A model generated the notes under the pieces. It was not told the DNA's origin, did not search any database, and saw only the letters and a list, made by a program, of their open reading frames with translations. From positions 1-64,000 of the forward strand of contig JAJEGJ010000001.1 of assembly GCA_022819905.1 (NCBI GenBank): a stretch of 64,000 bases of DNA. Reading direction: 5' to 3'. Positions 4,795 to 22,119 of the stretch are shown here, piece after piece; within the stretch, counting starts at the first letter, position 1, and every line of letters starts with the position of its first letter. Made by a program: the position numbers and the translations under genes. Source of the DNA: Alphaproteobacteria bacterium (GTDB lineage: Bacteria > Pseudomonadota > Alphaproteobacteria > TMED109).

Positions 4795-4867
4795 AAAAGA
4801 GTCGTCCTTTTTCAGAAAGCACCAGCGGGGCGACCGGCGCATCAATCAGGTCTGGGTAGAGGACGTC

Positions 4868-6118
4868 ATGCGCTATTCCGTCCTGCAGATCTTGAAGGAA
4901 GGCTTGACCGGCAACCGCGGCTGGAAGCCGGTGTGGCGCGAGCCGGACCCGAAGCGGCACTACGACACGGTCATCGTGGGCGGTGGCGGACACGGCATGG
5001 CCGCGGCCTACTATCTGGCAACGGTCCACGGGCTGACCGATATCGCGGTGCTGGAAAAAGGCTGGATCGGCTGCGGCAATGTCGGCCGCAACACGACGAT
5101 TATCCGTTCCAACTACCTGCTGCCCGGCAACGAGCCTTTCTACGAACTGTCGATGAAGCTGTGGGAGGGCCTGGAACAGGACATCAACTACAACGCCATG
5201 GTGTCGCAGCGCGGGCTGATCAACCTGTTCCACACCGACCCACAGCGTGATGCCGCTGTCCGGCGCGGTAATGCGATGCTCCTGGCCGGAGCGGGTGCGG
5301 TGCTGCTGGACCGCGACGCCCTCCGGCGAAAGTGCCCCTTCCTGGACTTCGACAACGAGCGCTTCCCGATCAAGGGAGGCCTGTGGCAGCCGCGCGGCGG
5401 CACGGTGCGGCACGATGCGGTCGTTTGGGGTTATGCCCGGGGCGCCGACCAGCGGGGCGTCGACGTGATCCAGAACTGCGAAGTCACCGGGTTCGATATC
5501 CGTGACGGCGTTTGCCGAGGGGTCGAGACCACCCGCGGGGCAATCGGCGCCGACAAGGTGGCAGTATGTGTGGCCGGCTCGTCCGGTCAGGTGATGGGCC
5601 TTGCGGGATTGCGGCTGCCGATCGAAAGCCACGTGCTGCAGGCCTGCGTGACCGAAGGGCTGAAACCGGCGATTCCCGGGGTGATTACCTTCGGCGCCGG
5701 GCATTTCTACGTCAGCCAATCGGACAAGGGCGGCCTCGTCTTCGGCGGCGACATCGACGGCTACAACACCTACGCGCAGCGGGGCAACCTGCCCACCGTG
5801 GAGGATGTCTGCGAGGGCGGCATGGCGCTGATGCCGATGATCGGGCGGGCGCGTGTGCTGCGCATGTGGGGTGGTGTCGTCGACATGTCGATGGACGGGT
5901 CGCCCTTCATCGACAGGACGCCGGTCGAAGGCCTCTTTTTCAGCGGTGGCTGGTGCTACGGCGGCTTCAAGGCAGTCCCGGCGGGCGGCTACTGCCTCGC
6001 CCACCTGATGGCGACCGGCGCGCCGCATCGGGTGGCTGAGGCGATGCGGCTTGACCGTTTCGTGACCGGCGCCGTGATCGACGAGAAGGGCATGGGCGCC
6101 CAGGCCAACCTCCACTAG
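4868..6118 (+). CDS. mgdA: Sarcosine oxidase beta-type subunit; probable N-methylglutamate dehydrogenase subunit A
   Basis: A 416-aa FAD/FMN subunit of the heterotetrameric sarcosine oxidase (SoxB)/N-methylglutamate dehydrogenase (MgdA) family. It has the FAD motif GGGGHG near residue 39, GNVGRNTTIIRSNY, and an RHD motif with His182 in the place where SoxB enzymes carry covalent FMN. Length equals the family norm. The ATG at 4868 follows AGAGG; an open frame further upstream overlaps the divergent regulator and is not SoxB-like. It is the first gene of a four-gene operon. I prefer MgdA over SoxB because MgsABC and a GmaS-type enzyme occur in this window and no folate genes (glyA, purU, folD) accompany the operon. 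Sarcosine oxidase remains possible. Confidence 0.85.
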   Translation: MRYSVLQILKEGLTGNRGWKPVWREPDPKRHYDTVIVGGGGHGMAAAYYLATVHGLTDIAVLEKGWIGCGNVGRNTTIIRSNYLLPGNEPFYELSMKLWEGLEQDINYNAMVSQRGLINLFHTDPQRDAAVRRGNAMLLAGAGAVLLDRDALRRKCPFLDFDNERFPIKGGLWQPRGGTVRHDAVVWGYARGADQRGVDVIQNCEVTGFDIRDGVCRGVETTRGAIGADKVAVCVAGSSGQVMGLAGLRLPIESHVLQACVTEGLKPAIPGVITFGAGHFYVSQSDKGGLVFGGDIDGYNTYAQRGNLPTVEDVCEGGMALMPMIGRARVLRMWGGVVDMSMDGSPFIDRTPVEGLFFSGGWCYGGFKAVPAGGYCLAHLMATGAPHRVAEAMRLDRFVTGAVIDEKGMGAQANLH

Positions 6119-6355
6119 CCGGGCCGGGAGGGGAAAAGACCATGTTGTTGTCGCAATCCAGACTGCTCACCGGAGGGTGGCCACTCTGGTGGCGGACGGC
6201 CGAAGCTTCCGACGTCGGGCCCGACAGGTCGACCGGGGGAACTCCGTGAACGCGCTGTTCGGATCGGGGCGGCGGCGTGCGACGTGGGCAGGATCAATGG
6301 CTGAGCGGCTTCGGGGAAGTCGCCCGCAGGCAGTGACGACCGGCGGGGTGAAGGA

Positions 6356-6643
6356 ATGATCATTGACCACCCGCTGCTTGGCCCGCGCGACGCGGCGGAG
6401 TTCGTGTATCTCGGCGATGCCTGCCTGATCGACCGGCCCGATCCGGGGGACGAGAACGCGGCGCGGCTGTTCCACGATTACCTCCACATCCGGGACAATC
6501 CTGCCGGCGAGCACCGGGAACTCTGGTTTCACGAACACGGCGATCGGTCCTGGCTGGTCGTGACCCGCAACACGCTGACCCACGAGATCGTGCGCGTCGA
6601 ATTGGCGCGTGATGTCGCGCTTGCCCGGGGGCGGGACCGGTGA
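6356..6643 (+). CDS. mgdB: Sarcosine oxidase delta-type subunit; probable N-methylglutamate dehydrogenase subunit B, zinc ligands lost
   Basis: A 95-aa protein with the delta-subunit signature GPRDAAEFVYLGDA, a central YLHIRDNPAGEHRELW block and THEI near the end. Classical SoxD binds structural zinc with Cys6, Cys9, His59 and Cys63. Here the aligned positions are His5, Leu8, His59 and Asp63, so three of four ligands have changed. The ATG has GAAGGA directly upstream. A 237-bp gap separates it from the beta gene, and its stop overlaps the GTG start of the alpha gene (GTGA). The loss of cysteines may mark the N-methylglutamate dehydrogenase branch rather than sarcosine oxidase. Confidence 0.85.
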   Translation: MIIDHPLLGPRDAAEFVYLGDACLIDRPDPGDENAARLFHDYLHIRDNPAGEHRELWFHEHGDRSWLVVTRNTLTHEIVRVELARDVALARGRDR

Positions 6644-9588
6644 GCGGTCCGTTCCGCCTCGACGGCGGCGCGATCGAGCGCGGCCGAACTCTGGCCTTTC
6701 GCTTCGACGGCCGGCGCCTGACGGGGCGTCCCGGTGACACACTGGCCTCGGCGCTGCTCGCCAATGGGGTCCGGCTGGTGGCCCGGAGTTTCAAGTATCA
6801 CCGGCCTCGAGGCGTGTTCTCGGCTGGTTCGGAAGAGCCGAACGCGCTGGTCGAATTACGGAGCGGGGCCTACCGGGAGCCCAATACGCGGGCGACCGTC
6901 GCCGAGTTGTTCGACGGGCTGGAGGCCACCAGCCAGAACTACCTGGGCTCGCTGCGCCATGATCTGCTGGCGGTCAATGACCTGCTCGCGCCCTTCCTTT
7001 CGGCCGGCTTCTATTACAAGACGTTCATGTGGCCCAGGTCTTTCTGGGAGCGGGTCTACGAGCCGGCCATCCGGGCATCTGCCGGGCTCGGCCGCCTGTC
7101 AGGCGAAGCCGATCCGGATAGCTACGACAAGGGATTCCTGCACTGCGACCTGCTCATTGTCGGTGCGGGACCCGCGGGCCTTGCCGCCGCACTCGAAGCC
7201 GGACGCAGCGGGGCGCGGGTCATCCTTGCCGACGAGGATTTCCTCATGGGTGGCCGGCTGAACGCCGAATCCCACGAAGTGAACGGCCGGCCCGGGGCGG
7301 CCTGGGCTGCCGATGCCGTACGCGAACTGGCTTCCGTGCACAGCGTCCGCCTGATGCCGCGAACCACGGTGATTGGCGCCTACGACCATGGTGTCTACGG
7401 CGCGCTGGAACGCCGGACCGATCATTTGGCCGCCGCCAGGGGCAAACCCCGGCAGATCCTGTGGCGGCTCTATACCAGGCGGGCCATCCTGTGCGCGGGA
7501 GCCTCGGAGCGACCCATTGCGTTCGGTGGCAACGACCGGCCCGGGATCATGCTGGCGGGCGCGGTCCGTGCCTACGCCAACCGGTTCGCTGTCGGTACCG
7601 GCCGCCGGGTCGGGGTGTTCACCAACAACGACGACGGGTGGCGTACGGCTGGCGACCTCTCCGCCAAAGGCGTCCCGATCGCCGCCGTCATCGACGTGCG
7701 GGACGGGGAACCGGCAGCAGCCGTCGCCGACGCCAGGATCCGGATGAACAGCCGGGTCGTGACCACCTGGGGCCGTCACGGCCTGAGGGGGATCACGCTG
7801 GCGACGGGCGAGCGGATCGCGCTGGACTGCCTTGCGGTTGCCGGCGGCTGGAACCCGAACGTCCATCTGACCTGCCATCACGGTGGCAGGCCGGTCTGGC
7901 GTGACGCGATTGCCAGTTTTGTGCCCGGCGACCGGCTCCCCGGCGGCATGAGCGTCGCCGGCGCTGCCGACGGCTGCCTCACGACGGCGGGCGCTCTCGC
8001 CGACGGGCATCGGGCGGCCGTTGCAGCGCTCGGTGAACTCGGGCTTGCCGCCGCCGCAGGCGAGCCGCCGGTCGCGAGCGACGAGGCGACCGGGGCCGCA
8101 TCCTTCTGGCATGTCCGAGAGAGCCGAGGCCGGGCCTGGCTGGATCTGCAGAACGACGTGACCGTGAAAGACGTGGAGCTGGCGCACCGCGAGGGCTTCC
8201 GCTCGGTTGAACTGTTGAAGCGCTACACCACGCTCGGCATGGCGACCGACCAGGGCAGGACAGCGAACGTCCTGGCGCTCGCCATCATGGCCGGATTGAC
8301 CGGCCGCACCATCCAGGAGACCGGCACGACCGCGTTCCGGCCCCCCTACACGCCGGTGCCGATCGCGGCCTTCGCCGGGCGGTCCCGGGGCAAGGACTTC
8401 CGCCCGACCCGACTGACGCCGAGCCACGACTGGGCGGAGGGGCAGGGGGCCGTCTTCGTTGATGCCGGCATGTGGCTGCGCGCCCAGTGGTTTCCGCGGT
8501 CAGGTGAGACCCACTGGCGGCAGTCCGTCGATCGGGAGGTGACCGACACCCGCGGCTCGGTCGGGATCTGCGATGTCACGACCCTGGGGAAAATCGATAT
8601 CCAGGGACGTGACGCTGCCGAGTTTCTGAACCGGATCTACGCCAACGGTTTCGCCAAGCTCGCGGTCGGCAAGGTGCGCTACGGGCTGATGCTGCGCGAA
8701 GACGGTATCGCCTACGACGATGGCACGACGGCCCGCCTCGCCGAGCACCATTTCGTCATGACGACGACGACGGCGAACGCGGTTCTCGTGTTCCGCAACA
8801 TGGAATTCGCCCGCCAGTGCCTGTGGCCGGGATTGGACGTCCACCTGATCTCGGTGACCGAACAGTGGGCGCAGTACGCAGTAGCCGGCCCGAATTCGCG
8901 CAGGCTGCTGGAGAAGATCGTCGATCCGGAACACGACATTTCCAACGAGGCATTTCCATTCATGGCGTGTGCCGAGATCAGCGTGTGTGGCGGCACCCCG
9001 GCCCGACTCTTCCGCATCTCCTTCTCCGGTGAACTGGCCTATGAGCTTGCCGTCGCGGCGCGATACGGCGAAGCCCTGATGGAGGTGCTGCTGGCGGCCG
9101 GCGAGGAGTTCGATGCGGTGGCCTACGGCACCGAGGCGCTCGGTGTCATGCGCATCGAGAAGGGACATGCCGCCGGCAACGAACTGAACGGCCAGACGAC
9201 CGCTCGCATGCTGGGCATGCAGCGCATGGTGTCGAAGCGGAAGGACTGTATCGGCAACGTGCTGTCCGAACGCCCGGAGATGAACCGCGACGACGGGATG
9301 GAGCTGATGGGCTTCAAACCGCTCGGTTCCGGCGATGAACTGACGGCCGGCGCACACCTTCTGGCGCTCGACGCGCCAGCCGACACGGTGAACGACGAGG
9401 GATGGATCTCCTCAGTGGCGTATTCGCCGACGCTGGAAACGTCCATTGGTCTAGGTTTTGTCCGGCAAGGGCACGCCCGCATCGGCGAGACCCTCCGGGC
9501 CTGGGACGCCCTGCAAGGCAGCGATGTTCGCGTCGAGATCGTATCGCCGCATTTCCACGATCCGGACGGGGAGCTGCTGCGTGCCTGA
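6640..9588 (+). CDS. mgdC: Sarcosine oxidase alpha-type subunit; probable N-methylglutamate dehydrogenase subunit C
   Basis: At 982 aa this is the largest subunit of the complex. The N-terminal ferredoxin-fold part carries RPGDTLASALLANG and RSFKYHRPRG. A Rossmann dinucleotide-binding motif, VGAGPAG, lies near residue 174. The C-terminal third (from about residue 596) is a GcvT-like aminomethyltransferase/tetrahydrofolate-binding domain, as in SoxA, where the released C1 unit is trapped. The GTG start overlaps the delta stop by 4 bp; the stop overlaps the gamma gene by 8 bp, so the operon is translationally coupled. Substrate is the same question as for the beta subunit: N-methylglutamate (preferred) or sarcosine. 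Confidence 0.87.
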   Translation: MSGPFRLDGGAIERGRTLAFRFDGRRLTGRPGDTLASALLANGVRLVARSFKYHRPRGVFSAGSEEPNALVELRSGAYREPNTRATVAELFDGLEATSQNYLGSLRHDLLAVNDLLAPFLSAGFYYKTFMWPRSFWERVYEPAIRASAGLGRLSGEADPDSYDKGFLHCDLLIVGAGPAGLAAALEAGRSGARVILADEDFLMGGRLNAESHEVNGRPGAAWAADAVRELASVHSVRLMPRTTVIGAYDHGVYGALERRTDHLAAARGKPRQILWRLYTRRAILCAGASERPIAFGGNDRPGIMLAGAVRAYANRFAVGTGRRVGVFTNNDDGWRTAGDLSAKGVPIAAVIDVRDGEPAAAVADARIRMNSRVVTTWGRHGLRGITLATGERIALDCLAVAGGWNPNVHLTCHHGGRPVWRDAIASFVPGDRLPGGMSVAGAADGCLTTAGALADGHRAAVAALGELGLAAAAGEPPVASDEATGAASFWHVRESRGRAWLDLQNDVTVKDVELAHREGFRSVELLKRYTTLGMATDQGRTANVLALAIMAGLTGRTIQETGTTAFRPPYTPVPIAAFAGRSRGKDFRPTRLTPSHDWAEGQGAVFVDAGMWLRAQWFPRSGETHWRQSVDREVTDTRGSVGICDVTTLGKIDIQGRDAAEFLNRIYANGFAKLAVGKVRYGLMLREDGIAYDDGTTARLAEHHFVMTTTTANAVLVFRNMEFARQCLWPGLDVHLISVTEQWAQYAVAGPNSRRLLEKIVDPEHDISNEAFPFMACAEISVCGGTPARLFRISFSGELAYELAVAARYGEALMEVLLAAGEEFDAVAYGTEALGVMRIEKGHAAGNELNGQTTARMLGMQRMVSKRKDCIGNVLSERPEMNRDDGMELMGFKPLGSGDELTAGAHLLALDAPADTVNDEGWISSVAYSPTLETSIGLGFVRQGHARIGETLRAWDALQGSDVRVEIVSPHFHDPDGELLRA

Positions 9589-10156
9589 CTGGAAACTCTC
9601 GGCACGGGCGCCGCTCGATGGCCACGAGCGCAACATCGGCACCGTCGCCGTTGCCGAAGTCACCGATCTGGCGCTCGTTTCGGCAGCCGTCCCACGGGGT
9701 GGCGACGAGGCCTTCGCGGCTGCACTTGCAGGCGGATTCGGCGCGACGCGGCCGGTGACCGGGGACTCGACGCTGGGCAACAGGCATGCGGCTCGGGTCC
9801 TCGGCATGCAGCCGGACCAGGTGTTCATCCTGTTCGCACCACCGGACCCGGACAGGCCGGCCGGAACCGTTGCAGCGGCCCTTGCATCCGCCGCCTACGT
9901 CACCGATCAGTCGGACAGCTGGGTGATCTTGCGGATGACCGGCGCCGGCGTTCGCACGGCCCTGGAACGCATATGTCCCCTTGACCTCGATGACCGGGTC
10001 TTCCCGTTACATCGTGTGGCGCGCACCGCGATGGAGCATCTCTCCGTGATCGTTCTGCGCGACGGGGCGGACAGCTTCCTGCTGATGAGCCCGCGTTCGT
10101 CAGCGCGGTCCTTCCGGCATGCGGTGGAACTATCGCTCGAGCATGTGTCGGAATAG
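9581..10156 (+). CDS. mgdD: Sarcosine oxidase gamma-type subunit; probable N-methylglutamate dehydrogenase subunit D
   Basis: A 191-aa protein, last in the operon, beginning at a GTG that overlaps the alpha stop by 8 bp. The GATRPVTGDS region and the pattern of a single truncated GcvT-like domain (SDSWVILRMTG, ERICPLDLDD, VARTAMEH) are those of SoxG/MgdD, which helps form the folate-binding and tunnel region of the complex. No catalytic residue is known for this subunit. An upstream in-frame extension to 9458 overlaps the alpha gene and is not conserved-looking. Confidence 0.83.
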   Translation: MPDWKLSARAPLDGHERNIGTVAVAEVTDLALVSAAVPRGGDEAFAAALAGGFGATRPVTGDSTLGNRHAARVLGMQPDQVFILFAPPDPDRPAGTVAAALASAAYVTDQSDSWVILRMTGAGVRTALERICPLDLDDRVFPLHRVARTAMEHLSVIVLRDGADSFLLMSPRSSARSFRHAVELSLEHVSE

Positions 10157-10387: not shown

Positions 10388-11434
10388 CTAGGCACGGTCC
10401 GGCACGCCGGCAGGAACCGGGACTCCCTGTTCGGGACGGGACGTCCCGGCGGAGCGGCCGCGCCGCCATCTTCCCGACAGGAGGTAGCTCCCGGCCAGGA
10501 GCAGGGCGGCCGTGCCGGCGAGCAGGGGCCGAAGGTCGCGCGACACGTCGGCGTCATTGGCCAGCTCGGGATGCTGAAGTGCCTGCTTGAGGTCGACTGT
10601 GTCTCCCACTCGCCGATAGTGCAGCCGCAGCTCGTTCGCCAGGGACCGGAGGTAGCCCTCGCGCAGCATCGAAAGATGTTCGGTACCCGAAGCGATGCGA
10701 GCCGCCACGTCTCCGGTCTCATCTCCTGCGTAGCTCTCCGGAATGTCCGTCGGCCGCCCGAGCGAGAGTTCGTCCACCTGAATGACCTCGTCCGCTCCCC
10801 AATGCCCGAGATTCCGGCCCTGCGGGTCAAGTTTGGGGATCGGCACCGGCACCGGGCCGCCCACACCGGCGAGCAATCCCCGGACCGCGCCGCGATCGCC
10901 CGAGAATCGCGGCCGAAGTTCAGCATGCAGGGGCGGGGCCTCGTGTCCGTCGGTGACGAACACGAGCGAGGTGGTCGGGCCGAGAGCCTTGGCGATCGTG
11001 AGCCCGGAGTGGACTCCTTTGGCGATTTCGCTGCGGGCTGCCCAGGCCATGCGCCAGTCCACCGCATCCACAACGCTCGAAATGTCGGCGTAGTTCGCAC
11101 ACACCTCGACCGGCGCGAGCACGAGAAAGGCCCGATGACCGGTGAACAGGGCCAGCCCGATCTCGGAGCCGCAGGGGAGGGCCGCCGTCGCTTCGAGCAC
11201 CGCGTCCTTGGCAAGCGCCAGTCGCGTCGTTGGCACGTCGTCCGGGTGCATGGCGTCACCGACATTCATGCTCTGGGTGATGTCGAACACGATCAGGTGC
11301 CGGAACACCTCGGACGACAGTGGCAGCACCGGTCTGGCGAGGGCGGCCACCGCCAGCGCCAAGGCCAACGTCAGCAACCCGAGCTGACCGCTCGCCAGGC
11401 GGCTGCGGCGGCCGGGCAAACCCGCGAAGCTCAT
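10388..11434 (-). CDS. mxaL: MxaL, von Willebrand factor A protein of methanol dehydrogenase maturation
   Basis: A 348-aa membrane-anchored vWA protein. Two hydrophobic segments flank the domain: one near the start (LLTLALALAVAALARPVL) and one near residue 305 (AALLLAGSYLL). The MIDAS motif is VFDITQSMNVGD, the DxTxS variant I associate with MxaL. The ATG overlaps the mxaK stop (ATGA). Last gene of a six-gene mxaRSACKL operon. In known methylotrophs MxaA, C, K and L are needed to insert calcium into the MxaFI methanol dehydrogenase in the periplasm. Confidence 0.82.
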   Translation of the reverse strand: MSFAGLPGRRSRLASGQLGLLTLALALAVAALARPVLPLSSEVFRHLIVFDITQSMNVGDAMHPDDVPTTRLALAKDAVLEATAALPCGSEIGLALFTGHRAFLVLAPVEVCANYADISSVVDAVDWRMAWAARSEIAKGVHSGLTIAKALGPTTSLVFVTDGHEAPPLHAELRPRFSGDRGAVRGLLAGVGGPVPVPIPKLDPQGRNLGHWGADEVIQVDELSLGRPTDIPESYAGDETGDVAARIASGTEHLSMLREGYLRSLANELRLHYRRVGDTVDLKQALQHPELANDADVSRDLRPLLAGTAALLLAGSYLLSGRWRRGRSAGTSRPEQGVPVPAGVPDRA

Positions 11435-12084
11435 GGCAGGCCCTCGTAGGTTCGGGCCGCTTGTCGCGCCTGCGGGCTGCGTTCGGGGTTGCGCTCGTTC
11501 TCGTAGTCGACCGCGGCAATGTCCGGGAGCATCTCGAGTGCGCGGGACAGGTTGTGGCGGGCGTCCCAGTGGCGGGGGTCGCGGGCAAGAATCTCGCGGT
11601 AGTTTTGCTTCGCGAGCTCCACGAGAGACACCGAGGACTGCATTTCGTCCGCCCGCTCAAGTGCTACCGCCTGCTCCAGGTAAAGGTTCGCGAGATTGAA
11701 GAGTTGCACGGCGCGCAACTCCGGCTCCTCGTCCAGCGCGACTGCGCCGTACGCAGCAACCGCCGCGCTGAGCTCCCCGCCTGCATGCAGCCGGTAGGCA
11801 CGGGCGAGCGCACCGCGGAGGGTGTCGCGTTCCGCGACGAACGCAATCTGGTTCTGGGCCAGCGCCCGGCTGACTCGCCGGTCATCGAGCAGACCGTGCA
11901 GATCGAGGGCGAAGGCTCCCGCCAGCGGCAGGAGTGCAGCCAGGTACCACCAATGGCTCCGACCGGCGAGGCCGGCTCGCCTGTGGGGAGGCGCTCCCGG
12001 GTGGCCTCGCGCGCGTTGGCCGGTCGGCCCAGCGTCAGGTTCCGGGTCGCCTGTGCGCGCCCGCCTGCGGTTCGGTCCTACCAT
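11431..12084 (-). CDS. mxaK: MxaK-like membrane-anchored TPR-type protein
   Basis: The ATG at 12084 gives 217 aa, with a 7-bp overlap into mxaC; a longer frame upstream is low-complexity and unlikely. One transmembrane segment (WWYLAALLPLAGAFALDL) follows a basic N-terminus. The remainder is alanine-rich and helical, with tetratricopeptide character (AVQLFNLANLYLEQA, NYREILARDPRHWDARHNL). Size and place between the two vWA proteins match MxaK. The overlap with mxaL (ATGA) shows coupled translation. Confidence 0.75.
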   Translation of the reverse strand: MVGPNRRRARTGDPEPDAGPTGQRARGHPGAPPHRRAGLAGRSHWWYLAALLPLAGAFALDLHGLLDDRRVSRALAQNQIAFVAERDTLRGALARAYRLHAGGELSAAVAAYGAVALDEEPELRAVQLFNLANLYLEQAVALERADEMQSSVSLVELAKQNYREILARDPRHWDARHNLSRALEMLPDIAAVDYENERNPERSPQARQAARTYEGLP

Positions 12085-13091
12085 GCCGACCGTTCCGAGA
12101 GTTTCGCCCCGACCAGCAGGACGAGGCCCGCCAGGGCGGCTGCAAGGCACGCGGACGTGAGATCAAGCCTGGCGATGGTCTCCAGGTAACGCACGGGAAG
12201 GTTCTGCAGGCGGTTCACGTCGGCGATCGCCCGCTCGAGATCCTCCGGGTTCTCGGCCGTATAGGCTCGGTACGAGCTGCCCAGGCTGGAGAAGAACGTG
12301 TGCAGCGTGCGCTCCGGCGTCATCCGCAAGGCGGCAGCGTCATCGCCAGGTTCGGACGCGGCAAGGATCGCGGGGCCGCGCTCCGATCGGATGTAGATCC
12401 AGTACAGCGAGGCTCGCAACCGCTGCATCCGATGGACGATGCGGAGCCTCGGGGTCTGTGAAATCTCCCCTGCGCCGTCGGAGACCAGCACCACGATCCG
12501 TGCCCCGGTATACGGCTCGCCCTCGAAGTAATCGAGCGCCTGCTCCAGCGCGGCGCCGATGTTGGTTTCCGCGAGCCCGCGTCCCACGTCGCCCGCAGCG
12601 ATCGACGCGTGCACGACCGCGTGGCGATCGGTGGGTCGCAGCACCGGGATCGGAAAGGTGCTGAACGCGACCATCCCGAACAAGTCATTGCGCCGTTCGG
12701 CGACGAACTTTGACAGGAGTTCGCGCGCTACCTCCCCCTTGGGCCGATATATCCCCTGGTTCGTCGCGCTTGCGGCGGTCCTGCGCGCGAACGGTTGATC
12801 CATGCTGGTGCTCCGGTCGACCAGCAGCACCATGTGCGCACCGTGTCCGAGCCGCTCAACCTGGTACGCGGACCGGTGCAAGCCGCTTGCGGCGAGCACC
12901 AGCGATATGATCGCGAGGCTTCCAATCGCGCGGAGGAGACAGTCGGTCCAGCGTGAGACGGGATCGGGCGGCAGCAGCCCGAGCCACGAGTACGGCACGG
13001 CCGATGTGATCGGCCGGAAGAAGGGCAGCACCGCCAGCGGAAGGAGCGCCAGCACCCAGCCGTGCACCACTCCGAGCGTGATCCCGAACAT
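12078..13091 (-). CDS. mxaC: MxaC, von Willebrand factor A protein of methanol dehydrogenase maturation
   Basis: At 337 aa, with N-terminal hydrophobic stretches (GWVLALLPLAVLPFF; IGSLAIISLVLAASG), a vWA domain with a complete MIDAS start DRSTSMD near residue 105, and a C-terminal transmembrane segment (CLAAALAGLVLLVGA). I chose the ATG at 13091, which follows the mxaA stop after 2 bp; the frame is open slightly further upstream. MxaC acts with MxaA, K and L in calcium insertion or activation of methanol dehydrogenase in characterised methylotrophs. Confidence 0.82.
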   Translation of the reverse strand: MFGITLGVVHGWVLALLPLAVLPFFRPITSAVPYSWLGLLPPDPVSRWTDCLLRAIGSLAIISLVLAASGLHRSAYQVERLGHGAHMVLLVDRSTSMDQPFARRTAASATNQGIYRPKGEVARELLSKFVAERRNDLFGMVAFSTFPIPVLRPTDRHAVVHASIAAGDVGRGLAETNIGAALEQALDYFEGEPYTGARIVVLVSDGAGEISQTPRLRIVHRMQRLRASLYWIYIRSERGPAILAASEPGDDAAALRMTPERTLHTFFSSLGSSYRAYTAENPEDLERAIADVNRLQNLPVRYLETIARLDLTSACLAAALAGLVLLVGAKLSERSAW

Positions 13092-13093
13092 GC

Positions 13094-14020
13094 TCACGGG
13101 ATGCGTTCCGCGTCGCGGCACGCCCGGCACAAGTCGCGCACGCTGTCCAGGTTCCGGGAGTCCGCGGTGGCGTCGGTGCCGTTGCCGTAGAACACCGCTC
13201 CCGATTCCGCGAAGAGTGCCGAGATCGGCGCTCGAAGCGGATTGAAGCGGGGGTGCTCGACGAAGAAACGATCGAGATCGTGCGCGAACACGGCCCGGCC
13301 TGCGGTGGCGTTGAAAGCAGTGTGCATCTCGACCAGCACGTCTGCGTACGCCACGGGCGCCTCGGGCCCCCTCATCCGGCGCTGGATACGGCGGTAGGCA
13401 CGCTCGAAGTGCCCGTGCGTACGCATTCCGAATCGCCCCGCCAGGTGCCGCCGGGCGATCAGCGCGACCAGACCAAGCAGCAGCACGCCCAGTGCAGTGA
13501 CGCGTGCCGTGCGCTTCGTGGTCGAAGCAGGTTCGGGGAGCAGCGCCGGCCGCAGATCCGGCAGGCGCCCGGGCGGCCGGTTCTCGGGGGTCAGCATCGG
13601 CGAGATCGAGAACGCCCAGCCGGGAACCACGACAGGGAAGTCATCCTCGGGTCCGACGATCCGAAGACTCAACGGTGGCGTGCCGGCCCCAATCACGCTC
13701 TGGGCCGCATTCACCACCTGGAAGCGGAGGCGAATGGTGTGGCGGGAGGTGCCGTCCCGGTTCCTGCCCTCGTGCGTCACGTCATTGAGGGACAGCCAAC
13801 GGCTCATACGCCCCGGTTCCGGGATGGATTGGAGGTCCAGCTCGAAGCCGGGATCCAGCGCCAGTGACACCTCGTGCTCGATCGTGTCGCCGATCACGTA
13901 CCCGAACGACCTCGGGGTCTTCACCGACAGATGCTCGACGGCGGCATCCGCGGGCGGTGACAGGGTCAACAGGAATCCTGTCAGCACGGCCGCAAGCCCC
14001 AGGCGGACGTGTCCGCTCAC
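13094..14020 (-). CDS. mxaA: MxaA-like periplasmic/membrane protein of methanol dehydrogenase maturation
   Basis: Starting at the GTG at 14020, the 308-aa protein has a signal peptide (GLAAVLTGFLLTLSPPADAA). A beta-rich periplasmic domain with FGYVIGDTIEHEVSL follows, then a transmembrane helix near residue 190 (ALGVLLLGLVALIA) and a cytoplasmic tail with HTAFNATAGRAVFAHDLDRF. This layout and the C-terminal signature match MxaA. Upstream codons to 14308 stay open but look non-coding. It is separated from mxaS by 339 bp, unusual for this operon; spacing to mxaC is 2 bp. Confidence 0.78.
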   Translation of the reverse strand: MSGHVRLGLAAVLTGFLLTLSPPADAAVEHLSVKTPRSFGYVIGDTIEHEVSLALDPGFELDLQSIPEPGRMSRWLSLNDVTHEGRNRDGTSRHTIRLRFQVVNAAQSVIGAGTPPLSLRIVGPEDDFPVVVPGWAFSISPMLTPENRPPGRLPDLRPALLPEPASTTKRTARVTALGVLLLGLVALIARRHLAGRFGMRTHGHFERAYRRIQRRMRGPEAPVAYADVLVEMHTAFNATAGRAVFAHDLDRFFVEHPRFNPLRAPISALFAESGAVFYGNGTDATADSRNLDSVRDLCRACRDAERIP

Positions 14021-14359
14021 GGTCGGTACTGAGCTGACAGGCCGGGCCCCGGGAAGGTCGGTTCGCCAACTGCAGCTGGTTTTACTGGACGCAATCCGGC
14101 CGGACACGAATTCGGTACGGGCATGCCTTGGCAGCCACTCGGATCGAATCGGTGCACGGGAAATGGGGGAGCCCGCGCCACCGAGCGAACCGGAGCTCTC
14201 GCCGATGACCCCGCCTCGCGCTGCGTCAAGACCCTGCCGAGCCTCAACACGAGAGCTGGTCGCAGCTCCGGCGGTCACCGCGCGCATGAAATGTCTGCCC
14301 TGGAACAAGCACCCGCAACGCTGGCCGCTGGGATCGACTCAAGGAACGGCAACATGGCG
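14021..14359 (-). other. Gap inside the mxa operon
   Basis: 339 bp between mxaS and mxaA. One frame stays open through it in continuity with mxaA, but its translation is compositionally unlike a domain (many Arg, Ser, Pro, Gly; no motif). I see no hairpin or second gene. Confidence 0.5.
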
Positions 14360-15253
14360 TTACGGACTGAAGTACCGATTGACGCGGTCGACATCGAAAC
14401 GGTCGGTGAGCACCAAGGGAGGGGCGCCGTGCGCAGCGAGGCAGTCGAACACCGCGGTCTTTCTCTGCTCTGCCTGCGCCCGCAGCCGATGCCGCAACGA
14501 AGGGCGCATCAACAGCGTCCGCTCCTCTCCGGTCTCCGGATCCAGAACCCGCACGAGCCCCACCCGTGGCGCTGGCTCCGATTCACGGCTGTCCTCGAGG
14601 ACGACCGGAACGACCTGGTGGCGTGCCGCGCGGGCAAGGATGGACTCGAGCAGGGCAAGCGGGAAGTGGAAGTCGGAGACCAGGAAGACGAGCGCGCGCC
14701 GGTTTCCGATCAGCGGGATCGCCTCCAGGAGACCTTCGGACCCGTGCCCGCGCGGGATGAAATCGCGCAGCCGAGCGGCCAGGTCGAGATACGCGCCTGA
14801 CATCCTGGTCGGCGGCAGCAGGAGCTCTCGGCGCACATTCACGTCGCAGCCGATGAAGGCGAAGGCGTCGCCAGCGCGCCCGGCGGAAAAGCCAAGTGCC
14901 GACACGAGCGAGGCCAGGGCCTCGATTCGATCCCCCTGACCACGGAATCCGAGCGAAGCGGACAGGTCCGCAACCACGTAGATGCGGACCGATGCGCGCT
15001 GGCGATAGCGTCGCACCAACAGCCGCCTGAGCGGATCCCGCGAGCTCGCCAGCAGATCCAGCCGTCGCGGATCGCGCCCGTCGAGCAGTGTCGTTCGGAC
15101 CAGCGGCTCCAGGCCGCCGCCGGTCTCCGTTCCCGCGTGCATGCCCGGACGGATGCTTCGCGCGCGACGGTTCAAGCGGTAGCCGACCTCGGCAGGCGCT
15201 GGTGAACGTCCATTCGGAAACTGCCCGGGAGACGGCCCGTGCGATTCGTTCAT
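14360..15253 (-). CDS. mxaS: MxaS, DUF58-domain protein of methanol dehydrogenase maturation
   Basis: A 297-aa protein. Residues from about 25 contain RSIRPGMH followed by the DUF58 core: LRRLLVRRYRQRASVRIYVV, then a vWA-like DLSASLGF motif and LVFLVSDFHFP. Proteins of this type work with a MoxR ATPase. The ATG overlaps the mxaR stop by 4 bp (ATGA), which settles the start against a longer frame running back into mxaR. DUF58-MoxR pairs are common in many bacteria; the vWA and MxaA/MxaK neighbours make this the methanol dehydrogenase version. Confidence 0.82.
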   Translation of the reverse strand: MNESHGPSPGQFPNGRSPAPAEVGYRLNRRARSIRPGMHAGTETGGGLEPLVRTTLLDGRDPRRLDLLASSRDPLRRLLVRRYRQRASVRIYVVADLSASLGFRGQGDRIEALASLVSALGFSAGRAGDAFAFIGCDVNVRRELLLPPTRMSGAYLDLAARLRDFIPRGHGSEGLLEAIPLIGNRRALVFLVSDFHFPLALLESILARAARHQVVPVVLEDSRESEPAPRVGLVRVLDPETGEERTLLMRPSLRHRLRAQAEQRKTAVFDCLAAHGAPPLVLTDRFDVDRVNRYFSP

Positions 15254-16272
15254 GGCGACGCGACGGCTTCCAGGATGGCCGACGTGAACGGTCCCGCGAT
15301 CTCCGACCGGCGCATCTCGTAAATCGGATTGAAGAAGATGCGGTGCGCGATCGTCGGCTCGAACACCGTGTGAATGTCCTCGGGGACGACCTCCGACCGT
15401 CCGGCCAGCCACGCGGCGACCCGAGCCGCCCGCAGCAGCATGCTCATGCCGCGCGGACTCGCCCCCGCCTGGACGAGTTCGGCGGCGGTCACGCCCTCAA
15501 GCTCGATGCCGAACGCCGCCGGGTTTCGGGTCGCGGCGCAGAGGTCGAGCGCATAGCGCAGCAGCGTCTCGGACGTTCCTACCGACGCCTGGATACGCGC
15601 GGCCGCGTCGTTGAGCTCGTGAAACGGTACGGTCGCCGGTTCCATCTCGTTGATCAGCGCGGCCACGTCGTGGTACCGGGTGTCGACCATGAGCTCGCGG
15701 AGCAGCCCGGGATCATCCGGCATCTCGATGGTGATCTCCATGAAGAACCGGTCGCGCACGGCTGCCGGAATCTCGAACGTCTCTTCGCGCTCGACGCGGT
15801 TGCGATCGGCAAAGACCTGCAGGTGGGGAAACTGGTGCTCCGTGTTGAAGGCGTTCACGTGGCGCTCCGCCATCGCCCGCAGCATGAGCGAATGAACCTG
15901 TGGCCGCGCCCGGTTGATTTCGTTGAAGAAGAAGATGGAAAGGTCGGGGCCGTGCCTGAGCAGCGGACCGGCCTCGACGCGTGGCTGGCCGTCCCGGGTG
16001 ACGTAGGTGTAGTAGAGGAGATCGCTCGGCATCAGGTCGACGGTGCCTTCGATGCGCTCGAATGCGCCGCCGATACCTCGAGCGAGGGTCTGGAGGAGTG
16101 TCGTCTTGCCCACGCCCACGTCCCCTTCGAGCAGGACATGGCCGCGTGCAAAGGTCGCGAGCAGCAACAGGCGCACGGCCCGCTCCTGCCCGATCATGAT
16201 CCGATTGGCACTGGCATCGAGCCGAAGGGCCCGATCGCGCCATGAATCAATCTCGGTTCCAGCTTCGATCAT
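15250..16272 (-). CDS. mxaR: MxaR, MoxR-family AAA+ ATPase
   Basis: A 340-aa cytoplasmic ATPase with Walker A GDVGVGKTT at residues 50-58. The Walker B region is LSIFFFNEINRARPQVH, with Asn117 where AAA+ proteins normally have Asp; the catalytic Glu118 is kept. The VFADRNRVEREETFEIPAAVRDRFF segment is the sensor 1/arginine-finger part. AAGGAG lies 6 nt before the ATG at 16272. It leads the mxaRSACKL operon. MoxR ATPases act as chaperones with vWA partners; here the presumed client is methanol dehydrogenase, whose structural genes are not in the window. Confidence 0.87.
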   Translation of the reverse strand: MIEAGTEIDSWRDRALRLDASANRIMIGQERAVRLLLLATFARGHVLLEGDVGVGKTTLLQTLARGIGGAFERIEGTVDLMPSDLLYYTYVTRDGQPRVEAGPLLRHGPDLSIFFFNEINRARPQVHSLMLRAMAERHVNAFNTEHQFPHLQVFADRNRVEREETFEIPAAVRDRFFMEITIEMPDDPGLLRELMVDTRYHDVAALINEMEPATVPFHELNDAAARIQASVGTSETLLRYALDLCAATRNPAAFGIELEGVTAAELVQAGASPRGMSMLLRAARVAAWLAGRSEVVPEDIHTVFEPTIAHRIFFNPIYEMRRSEIAGPFTSAILEAVASP

Positions 16273-16607
16273 CAGCTCCTTGACGACGCTCGCACCGGAT
16301 CAGGGAGCCTTCCGACGTCGGATCGCCAGGCGTCGGAGGCTGGCACCGATGATCCGGCCACCCTGGATGGCGGACACAAGACCGGACTGACCCGTGCCCG
16401 GAAAGTCGGATCACTTTATCCGAGAAAGCCGACCCTCAGGCGCTTCATGATGATTCGGTGAAGTCCGCAACAGGCGGCGAGAGGTCGCGCGTGAAGTGGG
16501 ACCGGGAGCGGGAAGCGGCTTGGGCTGCCCCTGTCGGCTCCCTATACTCGGACGTCCCTGCCGGATCCCGTGCCGCCGGGCAGCCCGCAGCAAACCGGGG
16601 CCGCGCC
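16273..16607. other. Divergent control region between mxaR and the 2-oxoglutarate oxygenase
   Basis: 335 bp without a gene. It holds a 12-bp palindrome TCCGACGTCGGA (16311-16322), with a further CGTCGGA half at 16331-16337, on the mxaR side. A good sigma70-like promoter (16520-16548) reads right. On the minus strand a ten-codon frame resembling the start of an oxidoreductase stops at once and is not counted as a gene. Confidence 0.5.
16520..16548 (+). promoter_or_regulatory. Sigma70-like promoter of the 2-oxoglutarate oxygenase
   Basis: -35 TTGGGC (16520-16525) and -10 TATACT (16543-16548) are separated by exactly 17 bp. The predicted transcription start near 16555 leaves a leader of about 50 nt before the ATG at 16608. 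Confidence 0.6.
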
Positions 16608-17699
16608 ATGAGCCGCGCCACATCCGCTCAAATTCCTGTCAAGGCCGGCGCATTCACGGCGGTGCCGGTCGTCGATATCGGTGCTCGGACCGACGGTCCC
16701 GTGGCCCGGCAAGCGCTCGCGACACGGCTCGGCGAGATCAGCCACCAGGTCGGTTTCGTGATCGTCACGTGTCATGGCATCGCGCCCGAAGTGATCCACG
16801 ACGTCTTCGGGCACGCAGCCCGCTTCTTTGCCCTGCCCGACGCTGACAAACGCAGCATCGACAAGCGCAACTCGCCTCATTTCCGCGGCTGGGAGCCGGT
16901 CGGCAGCGAATCCACCAACAACCGGCCAGACATCCGTGAGCAGATCGACCTGTGGACCGATCATCCGGCCCGGCCCCCTGATGCAGAACCGCACTACCTG
17001 CGGCTGCTGGGGCCGAACCAGTGGCCATCGGAAGAACTGGCGCCGGGATTCAGGCCGGCGCTGGAACGCTGGTTCATCGAAATGGCGATGCTGGCGGACG
17101 ATCTGTTGCGTCTCCTCGCCCTCAGTCTGGGACTCGCCGAAAACCATTTCGACGACGTGTTCGGAACCGAGCGAATGTCGCTGACCAAGCTGATCAGCTA
17201 CCCCGAGACGCCCCCGGGCCAATTCGGCGTCAACGCGCATCACGATACCGGGTTCATGACCATCCTCGCGCCCGGCACGATCGCGGGCCTCGAGGTCGAG
17301 AACGCCAACGGGGACTGGATCCCGGTCCCGGTGATACCGGACTCGCTGGTCGTCAATCTCGGGGAAATCCTCCAGGCCATCACCGGCAACTATTTTGTCG
17401 CCACTCCGCATCGGGTGGTTACCCGCGAACCGCGGCTCTCGGCCGGCTACTTCCATGGCCCTTCGCTGGACATGCGACTCGAACCGCTCGATCTGCATCC
17501 CCGTTTCGCAGAAGCGGTGGCCCGCAGTCCGCGTCACGCTGGCGCGGGCTTCATGGCCCAGCGCGACGAGACCGAGGCGGGCGTCGGCGACATGGAGAGC
17601 AAGCACCATCCCCGCACCTACGGCGAGCAGCTTTGGAACTACTTTGCACGCAGCTATCCCGATAACGTCGCGCGGCACTGGCCGGCCCCGGTTCGCTAG
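16608..17699 (+). CDS. 2-oxoglutarate/Fe(II) dioxygenase, isopenicillin N synthase-like
   Basis: A 363-aa non-haem iron oxygenase. The N-terminal VPVVDIG and HQVGFVIVTCHGI are typical of the isopenicillin N synthase/gibberellin oxidase family. The iron ligands are visible as HHD in NAHHDTGFMTIL (about residue 211) and the distal His in TPHRVV (about 267), followed by the 2-oxoglutarate-binding RLS-type segment. The ATG at 16608 follows a predicted promoter. It is divergent from the mxa operon and followed by an alpha/beta hydrolase. Substrate is unknown; such enzymes hydroxylate, dealkylate or cyclise small molecules. Confidence 0.85.
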   Translation: MSRATSAQIPVKAGAFTAVPVVDIGARTDGPVARQALATRLGEISHQVGFVIVTCHGIAPEVIHDVFGHAARFFALPDADKRSIDKRNSPHFRGWEPVGSESTNNRPDIREQIDLWTDHPARPPDAEPHYLRLLGPNQWPSEELAPGFRPALERWFIEMAMLADDLLRLLALSLGLAENHFDDVFGTERMSLTKLISYPETPPGQFGVNAHHDTGFMTILAPGTIAGLEVENANGDWIPVPVIPDSLVVNLGEILQAITGNYFVATPHRVVTREPRLSAGYFHGPSLDMRLEPLDLHPRFAEAVARSPRHAGAGFMAQRDETEAGVGDMESKHHPRTYGEQLWNYFARSYPDNVARHWPAPVR

Positions 17700-19768: not shown

Positions 19769-20938
19769 ATGACCCGAGTGAACGCCTCCGGGCTTCCGAG
19801 CCAGCGCCATCTCTTCGACATTCCCGATGACGTGGCCTACCTGAACTGCGCCTACATGGGGCCCCTGTTGCACGCGGCAGTTGAAGCCGGGGAGCGGGGC
19901 GTCCGGTCAAAGGCGCGTCCATGGGGAATCGGCCCTGACGATTTCTTCAGAGATGGAGAACGCGCCCGGGAGCTCTTTGCGCGGATGATTGGCGCCGATG
20001 CGGAAGGCGTTGCGCTGGTTCCTTCGGCCAGCTACGGACTGTCGTGCGCTGCCCGAAACGTACGGCTCTCGCCCGGTGACCGAATCATCGTGCTGGCGGA
20101 TCAATTTCCCTCGAATGTCTACGTTTGGCGCGAGGCTGCGCGCTCCAGCGGCGCCTCGCTGGTAACGATCGCACGGCCCGCTGACGACGACTGGTCTGAT
20201 GCGGTGCTCGCTGCGGTCGACGAACGCACCGCCGTGGTCGCGCTGCCACACTGCCACTGGACCGACGGCGGCCTGCTGAATCTCAATCGGATCGGCGCAC
20301 GCTGTCGAGAAGTGGGTGCCACGCTGGTTCTGGACCTCACGCAGTCGGCTGGCGCGCTGCGGTTTGACACGACCGAAGTGCAGCCGGATTACGTCGTCTG
20401 CGCAGGCTACAAATGGTTGCTTGGACCCTATTCCTTGGGCTTTCTCTGGGTGGCGCCAGCACATCGTGACGGCAAGCCCATCGAGTACAACTGGTCGGTG
20501 CGGGCGGGTGCGGAGGACTTCGCGCGGCTCGTCAGCTATCGGGACGAATACCGGCCGGGAGCCCGTCGTTTCGACGTGGGAGAGAACGCGAATTTCGTGC
20601 TGGTTCCCATGCTCAACACGGCACTTGAGCAAATCCTCGAATGGGGCGTGACTGCGATCGAGGAGACGCTCGCGCTACGTACCGCTCGAATCGCGGAACG
20701 GGTTACCGGCCTCGGATTCAGGGCACTTCCCGAAGCGGCACGGGCAGGACATTTTCTCGGTCTCCGGTTTCCCGGTGGCGAACCGCCGGACGGCCTTGCC
20801 TCGGAATTCGCAGCGGAACGGGTCTACGTCAGTGTCCGTGGATCGTCCATTCGGGTGACACCCCACCTCTACAACACGGATGCGGACGTCGAGCGGTTCC
20901 TCGAAGTGCTCGGCAGGCTGGTCCACGCCAACCGCTGA
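19769..20938 (+). CDS. Class V PLP-dependent aminotransferase
   Basis: A 389-aa fold-type I PLP enzyme. The Schiff-base lysine is K215 in CAGYKWLLGP, the pyridine-N contact is D189 in LVLDLTQSAGA, and PSASYGLS near residue 85 is the phosphate-binding turn. The closest families are kynureninase/cysteine desulfurase-like class V enzymes; no persulfide cysteine loop is evident, so a desulfurase is unlikely. The ATG at 19769 has GGAAGGA upstream. An operator-like palindrome and a leader hairpin precede it, and a PhyH dioxygenase follows 167 bp downstream on the same strand. Confidence 0.83.
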   Translation: MTRVNASGLPSQRHLFDIPDDVAYLNCAYMGPLLHAAVEAGERGVRSKARPWGIGPDDFFRDGERARELFARMIGADAEGVALVPSASYGLSCAARNVRLSPGDRIIVLADQFPSNVYVWREAARSSGASLVTIARPADDDWSDAVLAAVDERTAVVALPHCHWTDGGLLNLNRIGARCREVGATLVLDLTQSAGALRFDTTEVQPDYVVCAGYKWLLGPYSLGFLWVAPAHRDGKPIEYNWSVRAGAEDFARLVSYRDEYRPGARRFDVGENANFVLVPMLNTALEQILEWGVTAIEETLALRTARIAERVTGLGFRALPEAARAGHFLGLRFPGGEPPDGLASEFAAERVYVSVRGSSIRVTPHLYNTDADVERFLEVLGRLVHANR

Positions 20939-21105
20939 CCCTGGACTGGGTCCGCCAGCGACTACTCCCTGTTGGCCTGCCTGGTCAGGTGACACCTCTG
21001 CGCGACTGGCGATGCAGCCAAGGCTCCCGGTCCAGCTATCATCGGCACATCAGGCTCAGCCGGTCTTCGCGGCACTCGCGATGCGGCAACGGAGTTGAAC
21101 CGCCA

Positions 21106-22119
21106 ATGCTCCCCGAAGCCGTTCTTGCGCACTCCGCCGTGCAACTGACCGAGGACCAGCGCCGGCACTACTTCGCGCAGGGCTACGTCGCACTTCCCAA
21201 TGCCATTGGGTCCAGCTGGACCAGGAAGTTGCAGGCTGCGGCGCGGGAACTCGTGGAGGAGAGCCGGCGGTGCTCCTCATCAGGCAGCGTCTTCGAGCTG
21301 GAGGAGGGGCACTCCGCTGAGTCCCCCCGGCTGCACCGCGTCTACAGCCCCCAGGATCATCATCCCGTGTTCTGGGACTTCATCTGCAGCGAGGAGATGA
21401 CGGCCCTGGCGGCGGACGTCGTCGGGCCGGACGTCAAGTTTCATCACGCCAAGCTCAATCTGAAGTCGGCGCGCGGCAGCAGGGGATTCGATTGGCATCA
21501 GGACATTCAGGCGTGGCCGCATACCGACTACAGCCCGGTCACGATCGGGGTCTACATCGAAGGCTGTGACGCGGATCAGGGCCCGCTTGCGATGGTTCCC
21601 GGCAGCCACCACGGCAAGCTCTACAGCATGTATGACGAGGCTGGCTCGTTTGCGGTCCGAATCGCGCCCGAGGAACTGGCGTGGCTCGACGCTGGCGTGG
21701 TGGATGCACCTACGGGACCGGCTGGCACCGCGGTACTTCTCGGTTGCAGGACAATCCACGGCTCGGTGCGGAACAATTCCCTCCGGGACCGTCCGCTATT
21801 GCTGGTGGTCTATTCGAGCGCTGACTCCTTCGCCTACACCGCGAGTCCGATCGACAGTCCGCGCCTGGGAGAAATCGTACGTGGCAGCCCGGCGCAGTAC
21901 GCGAGTTTCGACATCCGTCCCTGCGAACTGCCGCCGGACTGGGCCAGGCAGGGTTATGGCGGACCCTGGAAGCGCCAGCAGGCGGCCGAGCGGACGCAGG
22001 CGTCTGATGCTCGTCGCTCGGCCGCGGGGAGCGACCAGGAAACTCGGCCCGGGCGAGTGACCCCTGAAACCAACGCTACGAGAGATTCGACTACGCGGGA
22101 CCCAACGTCGCCGTCGTGA
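21106..22119 (+). CDS. Phytanoyl-CoA dioxygenase (PhyH) family protein
   Basis: A 337-aa 2-oxoglutarate/Fe(II) oxygenase. The iron-binding HxD is H131/D133 in FDWHQDIQAWPHTD; the distal histidine is H218 in TIHGSVRNNS; the AMVPGSHHGK turn is typical of PhyH. The final 50 residues are polar, low-complexity and look like a dispensable tail. The ATG at 21106 has GGAG upstream; an open frame back to 20641 overlaps the aminotransferase and is not PhyH-like. It is convergent with a second PhyH gene. Natural substrates of bacterial PhyH proteins are varied; none can be assigned. Confidence 0.82.
   Translation: MLPEAVLAHSAVQLTEDQRRHYFAQGYVALPNAIGSSWTRKLQAAARELVEESRRCSSSGSVFELEEGHSAESPRLHRVYSPQDHHPVFWDFICSEEMTALAADVVGPDVKFHHAKLNLKSARGSRGFDWHQDIQAWPHTDYSPVTIGVYIEGCDADQGPLAMVPGSHHGKLYSMYDEAGSFAVRIAPEELAWLDAGVVDAPTGPAGTAVLLGCRTIHGSVRNNSLRDRPLLLVVYSSADSFAYTASPIDSPRLGEIVRGSPAQYASFDIRPCELPPDWARQGYGGPWKRQQAAERTQASDARRSAAGSDQETRPGRVTPETNATRDSTTRDPTSPS

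Follow-up and report, generated by a model that had tools for sequence, protein, structure and literature searches.

The closest described system is the mxaFJGIRSACKLD cluster of Methylorubrum, Paracoccus, Methylocystis and Hyphomicrobium, and MxaACKL have been credited with calcium insertion (PMC6028718). Elsewhere, pairs of a MoxR ATPase and a von Willebrand factor type A (vWA) protein, such as NorQ-NorD, RavA-ViaA and CbbQ-CbbO, insert metal or remodel their clients (PMC12657314). Extra mxaRSACKL clusters without mxaFI and mxaD occur in XoxF-only Methylophilaceae genomes (M. mobilis JLW8 and M. versatilis 301), and two XoxF-only Methylotenera strains that retained mxaRSACKL without mxaD grew on methanol plates with La3+ (PMC4109929). 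In Sphaerotilus, too, a partial mxa set has been reported in the absence of mxaFI (PMC13300288). Given these published cases, mxaRSACKL without mxaFI is an arrangement already known in other bacteria and is not new. Here we analyze an orphan mxaRSACKL operon, that is, one without structural genes nearby, in the first 64 kb (the window) of a 124-kb contig (C78, JAJEGJ010000001.1) from the metagenome-assembled genome (MAG) of an uncultured alphaproteobacterium (G000; 3.6 Mb, 123 contigs, 96.3% complete). Within the literature searched, the novelty appears to lie in finding the orphan operon as a deep lineage of Alphaproteobacteria. With modest confidence we favor the lanthanide-type methanol dehydrogenase XoxF as the most likely client; its gene lies on a different contig of this genome, and other quinoproteins carrying the D-x-D motif may be clients as well.

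Six intact open reading frames lie in series on the minus strand from 16272 to 10388, in the order mxaR-S-A-C-K-L. The first, mxaR (15250..16272), encodes a MoxR-family AAA+ ATPase (AAA_3, 8.7e-26) with an intact Walker A motif, GDVGVGKTT. The product of mxaS (14360..15253) is a DUF58 protein (DUF58, 3.6e-24) with a DLSAS sequence resembling a metal ion-dependent adhesion site (MIDAS), and its ATG start at 15253 overlaps the mxaR stop. MxaA (13094..14020, start approximate) belongs to no Pfam family and is predicted to have a signal peptide, a periplasmic immunoglobulin (Ig)-like beta domain, a single transmembrane helix and, at the C-terminus, a helical domain. MxaC (12078..13097) is a membrane-anchored vWA protein with transmembrane segments and the MIDAS motif DRSTS (VWA_2, 2e-10), MxaK (11431..12084) is a small membrane-anchored protein with a stretch weakly matching tetratricopeptide repeats, and MxaL (10388..11434) is a second vWA protein (VWA_2, 2.5e-5) with a MIDAS-like DITQS. 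The R/S and K/L junctions overlap as ATGA, A/C overlaps as GTGA and C/K by a few bases. The tight coupling described in an earlier note on this DNA therefore holds at four of the five junctions and fails at the fifth, where about 340 nt (14020-14360) separate mxaS from mxaA. This spacing is also longer in the genus members G003 and G005, and is about 30 nt in G001.

We compared the six proteins by BLASTP with the mxaFJGI-linked operons of Methylobacterium nodulans, Methylocystis iwaonis and Paracoccus methylovorus and with the orphan operon of Caballeronia. The clear best match of each was its own namesake, at identities of 50-57% for MxaR (E to 1e-137), 36-41% for MxaS, 26-29% for MxaA (E to 1.7e-34), 31-38% for MxaC, 27-31% for MxaK (E to 6e-14) and 35-41% for MxaL (E to 1e-61). 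Generic MoxR-vWA systems (Bat type, RavA-ViaA, NorQ-NorD, CbbQ-CbbO) likewise combine an AAA+ ATPase with MIDAS-bearing vWA proteins, and the working principle is likely the same. However, a search of MxaR against 72,556 plasmids was sharply bimodal, with 50-57% identity in 11 records, mostly of methylotrophs, and at most 38% for all other MoxR listed. The MxaR tree placed the Mxa clade apart from the four other, generic MoxR of the same genome with support of 100/100, unlike what a generic MoxR-vWA (Bat) operon would show; in trees of MxaR only, the placement of the window's lineage was not resolved. From the one-to-one best matches, the bimodal plasmid search and the separate Mxa clade we conclude, on sequence grounds, that the six genes are a genuine mxaR, S, A, C, K, L operon of the orphan lineage. 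The earlier note was thus right about a complete set in the known order, and the two findings it had named as speaking against its proposal did not appear: mxaFJGI is unlinked and MxaR lies outside the generic MoxR.

The AlphaFold model of MxaA has a mean predicted local distance difference test score of 87, and comparison with solved structures found no relative, only the common Ig-like arrangement. Its predicted architecture would suit a role in relaying force from MxaR to a client in the periplasm. A CxxC motif near the MxaA C-terminus was considered as a marker of the orphan lineage and rejected; it is also present in Methylomonas and other gammaproteobacterial mxaFI-linked MxaA, and among the proteins sampled is absent only from alphaproteobacterial mxaFI-linked MxaA.

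None of mxaF, J, G, I and D was found within the operon locus, and contig C78 gave no PQQ dehydrogenase match. MxaI (PF02315) had no match anywhere in the genome even at E<=10 and none in the two genus relatives searched, so the suggestion that the structural genes lie elsewhere finds no support. On contig C62 we detected a XoxF of 631 aa that has the CC pair and carries the D-x-D lanthanide signature as EWDYDG; it scores 966 bits against the solved XoxF 6DAM. The xoxF gene is followed by a cytochrome c gene (XoxG), whose score is below the NCBIfam cut-off of TIGR03874, and then by a gene for a XoxJ-type protein. The genes pqqB, C, D and E are clustered on contig C96, so that the check for xoxF and pqq genes proposed earlier was positive for both. 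Since only lanthanide-type methanol dehydrogenases are present, the mxa set probably serves those. The genome also encodes five further pyrroloquinoline quinone (PQQ) alcohol dehydrogenases (L009, L011, L012, L013 and L015), some beside PedF-like or MoxG-like cytochromes. On contig C11 (L009 7256-17927), one PQQ dehydrogenase has a generic MoxR gene at a distance of about 9 kb.

Orphan operons are common among the mxaR loci that we collected. Of 87 loci, 26 were linked to mxaFJGI, 41 were orphan, 6 had xoxF and xoxJ within 10 kb and 14 were too short to score, so mxaFJGI was not linked in 47 of the 73 scorable loci. Together with the published Methylophilaceae cases, these counts make the arrangement less unusual than the earlier note implied. 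As that note had said, mxaD is missing at the locus: convergent sarcosine oxidase genes follow mxaL, and mxaD is also absent from the relatives' loci L049 and L050, although no genome-wide search for mxaD was made. All 26 mxaFI-linked loci have mxaD and none of the 41 orphan loci does, so its lack here is not a separate oddity. Among 39 genomes whose operon is orphan or cut, 33 had no MxaI at all, and MxaI was detected in three of three mxaFI-linked controls. XoxF at 67-78% identity was present in nearly all non-Methylophilaceae genomes with an orphan operon; at the threshold used (E<=1e-130) most Methylophilaceae XoxF were missed through split alignment, and zeros in that family do not mean absence. 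Compared with the Methylophilaceae clusters, the window's operon has an alphaproteobacterial host, was found in one copy and forms a separate deep lineage. One orphan operon lies on a mobilizable plasmid (Caballeronia sp. Lep1P3 plasmid p3; L045, 9989-15192), with a heavy-metal resistance-nodulation-division efflux cluster on one side, arsenic genes on the other and an adjoining IS91 transposase. No PQQ dehydrogenase was found within 10 kb of this plasmid operon.

Association with XoxF was also examined in 399 genomes of Burkholderiales, the order chosen through a Rhizobacter genome, counting XoxF at 57% identity or more and scoring the best few candidates per genome; four carriers were already among the mxaR loci collected earlier. 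Without correction for relatedness, XoxF was detected in 33 of 35 mxaR carriers versus 16 of 364 genomes without mxaR, and in 21 of 23 carriers versus 15 of 363 others when genomes with only the Methylophilaceae-like XoxF type were left out. In 7 of the 21 carriers with XoxF5-like genes, mxaR and xoxF are no more than 10 kb apart. Orphan operons of Rhizobacter, Variovorax and Paraburkholderia (L086, L098, L114 and L122) resemble that of the window in having the six genes, no mxaFI and a XoxF in the genome. Some genomes of this sample, G786 and G520 among them, have four or five separate mxaR copies.

A tree of concatenated MxaR, S, C and L separated mxaFI-linked operons from orphan and xox-linked ones with weak support (76/44), and 80% of bootstrap trees kept the mxaFI-linked operons together on one side. 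The window's operon matches the alphaproteobacterial mxaFJGIRSACKLD clusters in its six genes, their order, domain make-up and coupling, but has neither mxaFJGI nor mxaD. Grouping of the window's genus with alphaproteobacterial mxaFI-linked operons was rejected by the approximately unbiased test (p-AU 1.4e-5), for a group that had been chosen after the first trees were inspected. The nearest relative of the operon in the concatenated tree was that of a Thiotrichales MAG (support 95/99). In a tree of XoxF sequences chosen largely by the presence of mxaR, the window's XoxF grouped with those of the same Thiotrichales MAG and of a Competibacteraceae MAG (support 97-99), which also has an orphan operon. 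Its identity to XoxF of two Hyphomicrobiales genomes and of the alphaproteobacterium G035 was only 63-67%. Operon and XoxF thus point, unexpectedly, to the same gammaproteobacterial kin, which would fit joint transfer or joint evolution; these placements are supportive, not decisive.

Within the genus, the operon is kept in four other MAGs (G001, G003, G005 and G006) between the same neighbors, so that the comparison of position in relatives suggested earlier gave a consistent picture. On one side lie the soxBDAG sarcosine oxidase genes (4852..10156, plus strand; DAO, SoxD, TIGR01372 soxA, with soxG assigned by position only), convergent with mxaL and not part of the system. On the other, in the place normally taken by mxaFJGI according to the earlier note, is a divergent 2-oxoglutarate (2OG)-Fe(II) oxygenase gene (16605..17699, plus strand; DIOX_N and 2OG-FeII_Oxy) upstream of mxaR, a conserved neighbor not known as a system part. 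Proteins of the locus are 63-98% identical among these MAGs and the window, and dN/dS between genus members is about 0.10 for MxaR, 0.14-0.24 for MxaC and 0.35 for MxaL. The operon is under purifying selection. The assembly of G002 is without the operon together with the sarcosine oxidase flank, the G004 contig ends just before the operon, and no clean empty site was seen. Among 385 genomes sampled across the class, mxaR was found only in the window's genus and in G308, where the operon is linked to mxaFJGI. Homology in mxaS of G005 is broken by about 100 bp (L038 5923-6025), an insertion or an assembly error. A second set of sarcosine oxidase genes, about 65% identical, is located elsewhere in four genomes (G003:C9, G004:C7, G006:C41 and G002:C10). 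The window also holds a PhyH-type dioxygenase beside a class V aminotransferase (20641-22119), located downstream of both the 2OG oxygenase and an alpha/beta hydrolase.

The suggestion in the earlier note that the set matures another quinoprotein, for example XoxF, gains from genome content, co-occurrence, linkage elsewhere and the similar placement of operon and XoxF in two trees. The client itself, the metal loaded, the direction in which force acts and the existence of the complex are all inferred here. In the mechanism that we propose, MxaR, a hexamer by analogy with other MoxR proteins, would be docked at the membrane by the MIDAS-bearing MxaS, MxaC and MxaL. The force of ATP hydrolysis would be relayed by MxaK and by the membrane-spanning MxaA, with its periplasmic Ig-like domain, to the exported apo-enzyme, which may thereby be opened for the insertion of metal and PQQ. 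To our knowledge, the route of lanthanide and PQQ into XoxF is not established, and we know of no test of which enzyme an orphan mxaRSACKL serves.

Several observations weigh against XoxF as the client. In Methylorubrum extorquens, mxaRSACKL genes are down by log2 4.3-7.0 where xoxF1 is up (PMC6414531), so XoxF there seems to manage without the mxa cluster, and a review states that mxaRSACKL genes are not required for XoxF (PMC11845868). Operon and xoxF lie unlinked on separate contigs in the window's genome, whereas at the four Burkholderiales loci named above xoxF is within 10 kb. Sixteen Burkholderiales genomes have XoxF without mxaR, the genomes of that sample are not independent, and MxaI was not searched in them. 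Within the genus, G002 has the XoxF ortholog and no operon in its assembly, while G006 has the operon and no detected ortholog of the window's XoxF (both 92-93% complete).

The strongest alternative is that the client is another PQQ alcohol dehydrogenase of the genus, for example of the C20 or C11 type. It is compatible with the five further enzymes of the genome, all with the D-x-D lanthanide motif, and with the presence of the C20 type in all seven genus members, including G006. No type tracks the operon, however; G002 keeps six types without it, and we dropped any client call from co-occurrence within the genus. In other bacteria, the quinoprotein linked to the operon is XoxF with XoxJ, and we consider a different PQQ alcohol dehydrogenase unlikely. 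More doubtful still is a client that is not a quinoprotein, with the MoxR-vWA machine re-used for instance for an enzyme encoded nearby. MoxR-vWA pairs do serve many clients (PMC12657314), and five genomes retain soxBDAG, the 2OG oxygenase and other neighbors along with the operon. Retention of the full six-gene set with Mxa-type sequences and the strong association that operon and XoxF show in other bacteria argue against such re-use. It is very improbable that the operon is a remnant from which mxaFI has been lost: it has no linked client and is absent from the G002 assembly, but its six frames are open, Walker and MIDAS motifs are intact, dN/dS is well below 1 and synteny holds in five genomes. 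A calcium MxaFI dehydrogenase hidden in the missing part of a 96.3% complete, 123-contig assembly is the least probable explanation and largely refuted, as MxaI is lacking from G000 and both relatives searched, more than 100 kb upstream on C78 holds no PQQ dehydrogenase match, and the operon groups away from alphaproteobacterial mxaFI-linked operons.

With XoxF as the favored client, a broader proposal can be made tentatively, at somewhat less than even confidence. Orphan mxaRSACKL operons could represent an old lineage of ATP-driven maturation machines that is dedicated to XoxF and separate from the calcium lineage; this lineage, and a matching XoxF shared with gammaproteobacteria, would then be present in the window's genus. 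The interest of the locus lies in the role that the orphan operon lineage may have in lanthanide enzymes, and in its unexpected host. A phylogenetically separate mxa set, found with XoxF and without the calcium enzyme, makes a role of Mxa proteins in XoxF maturation a testable question.

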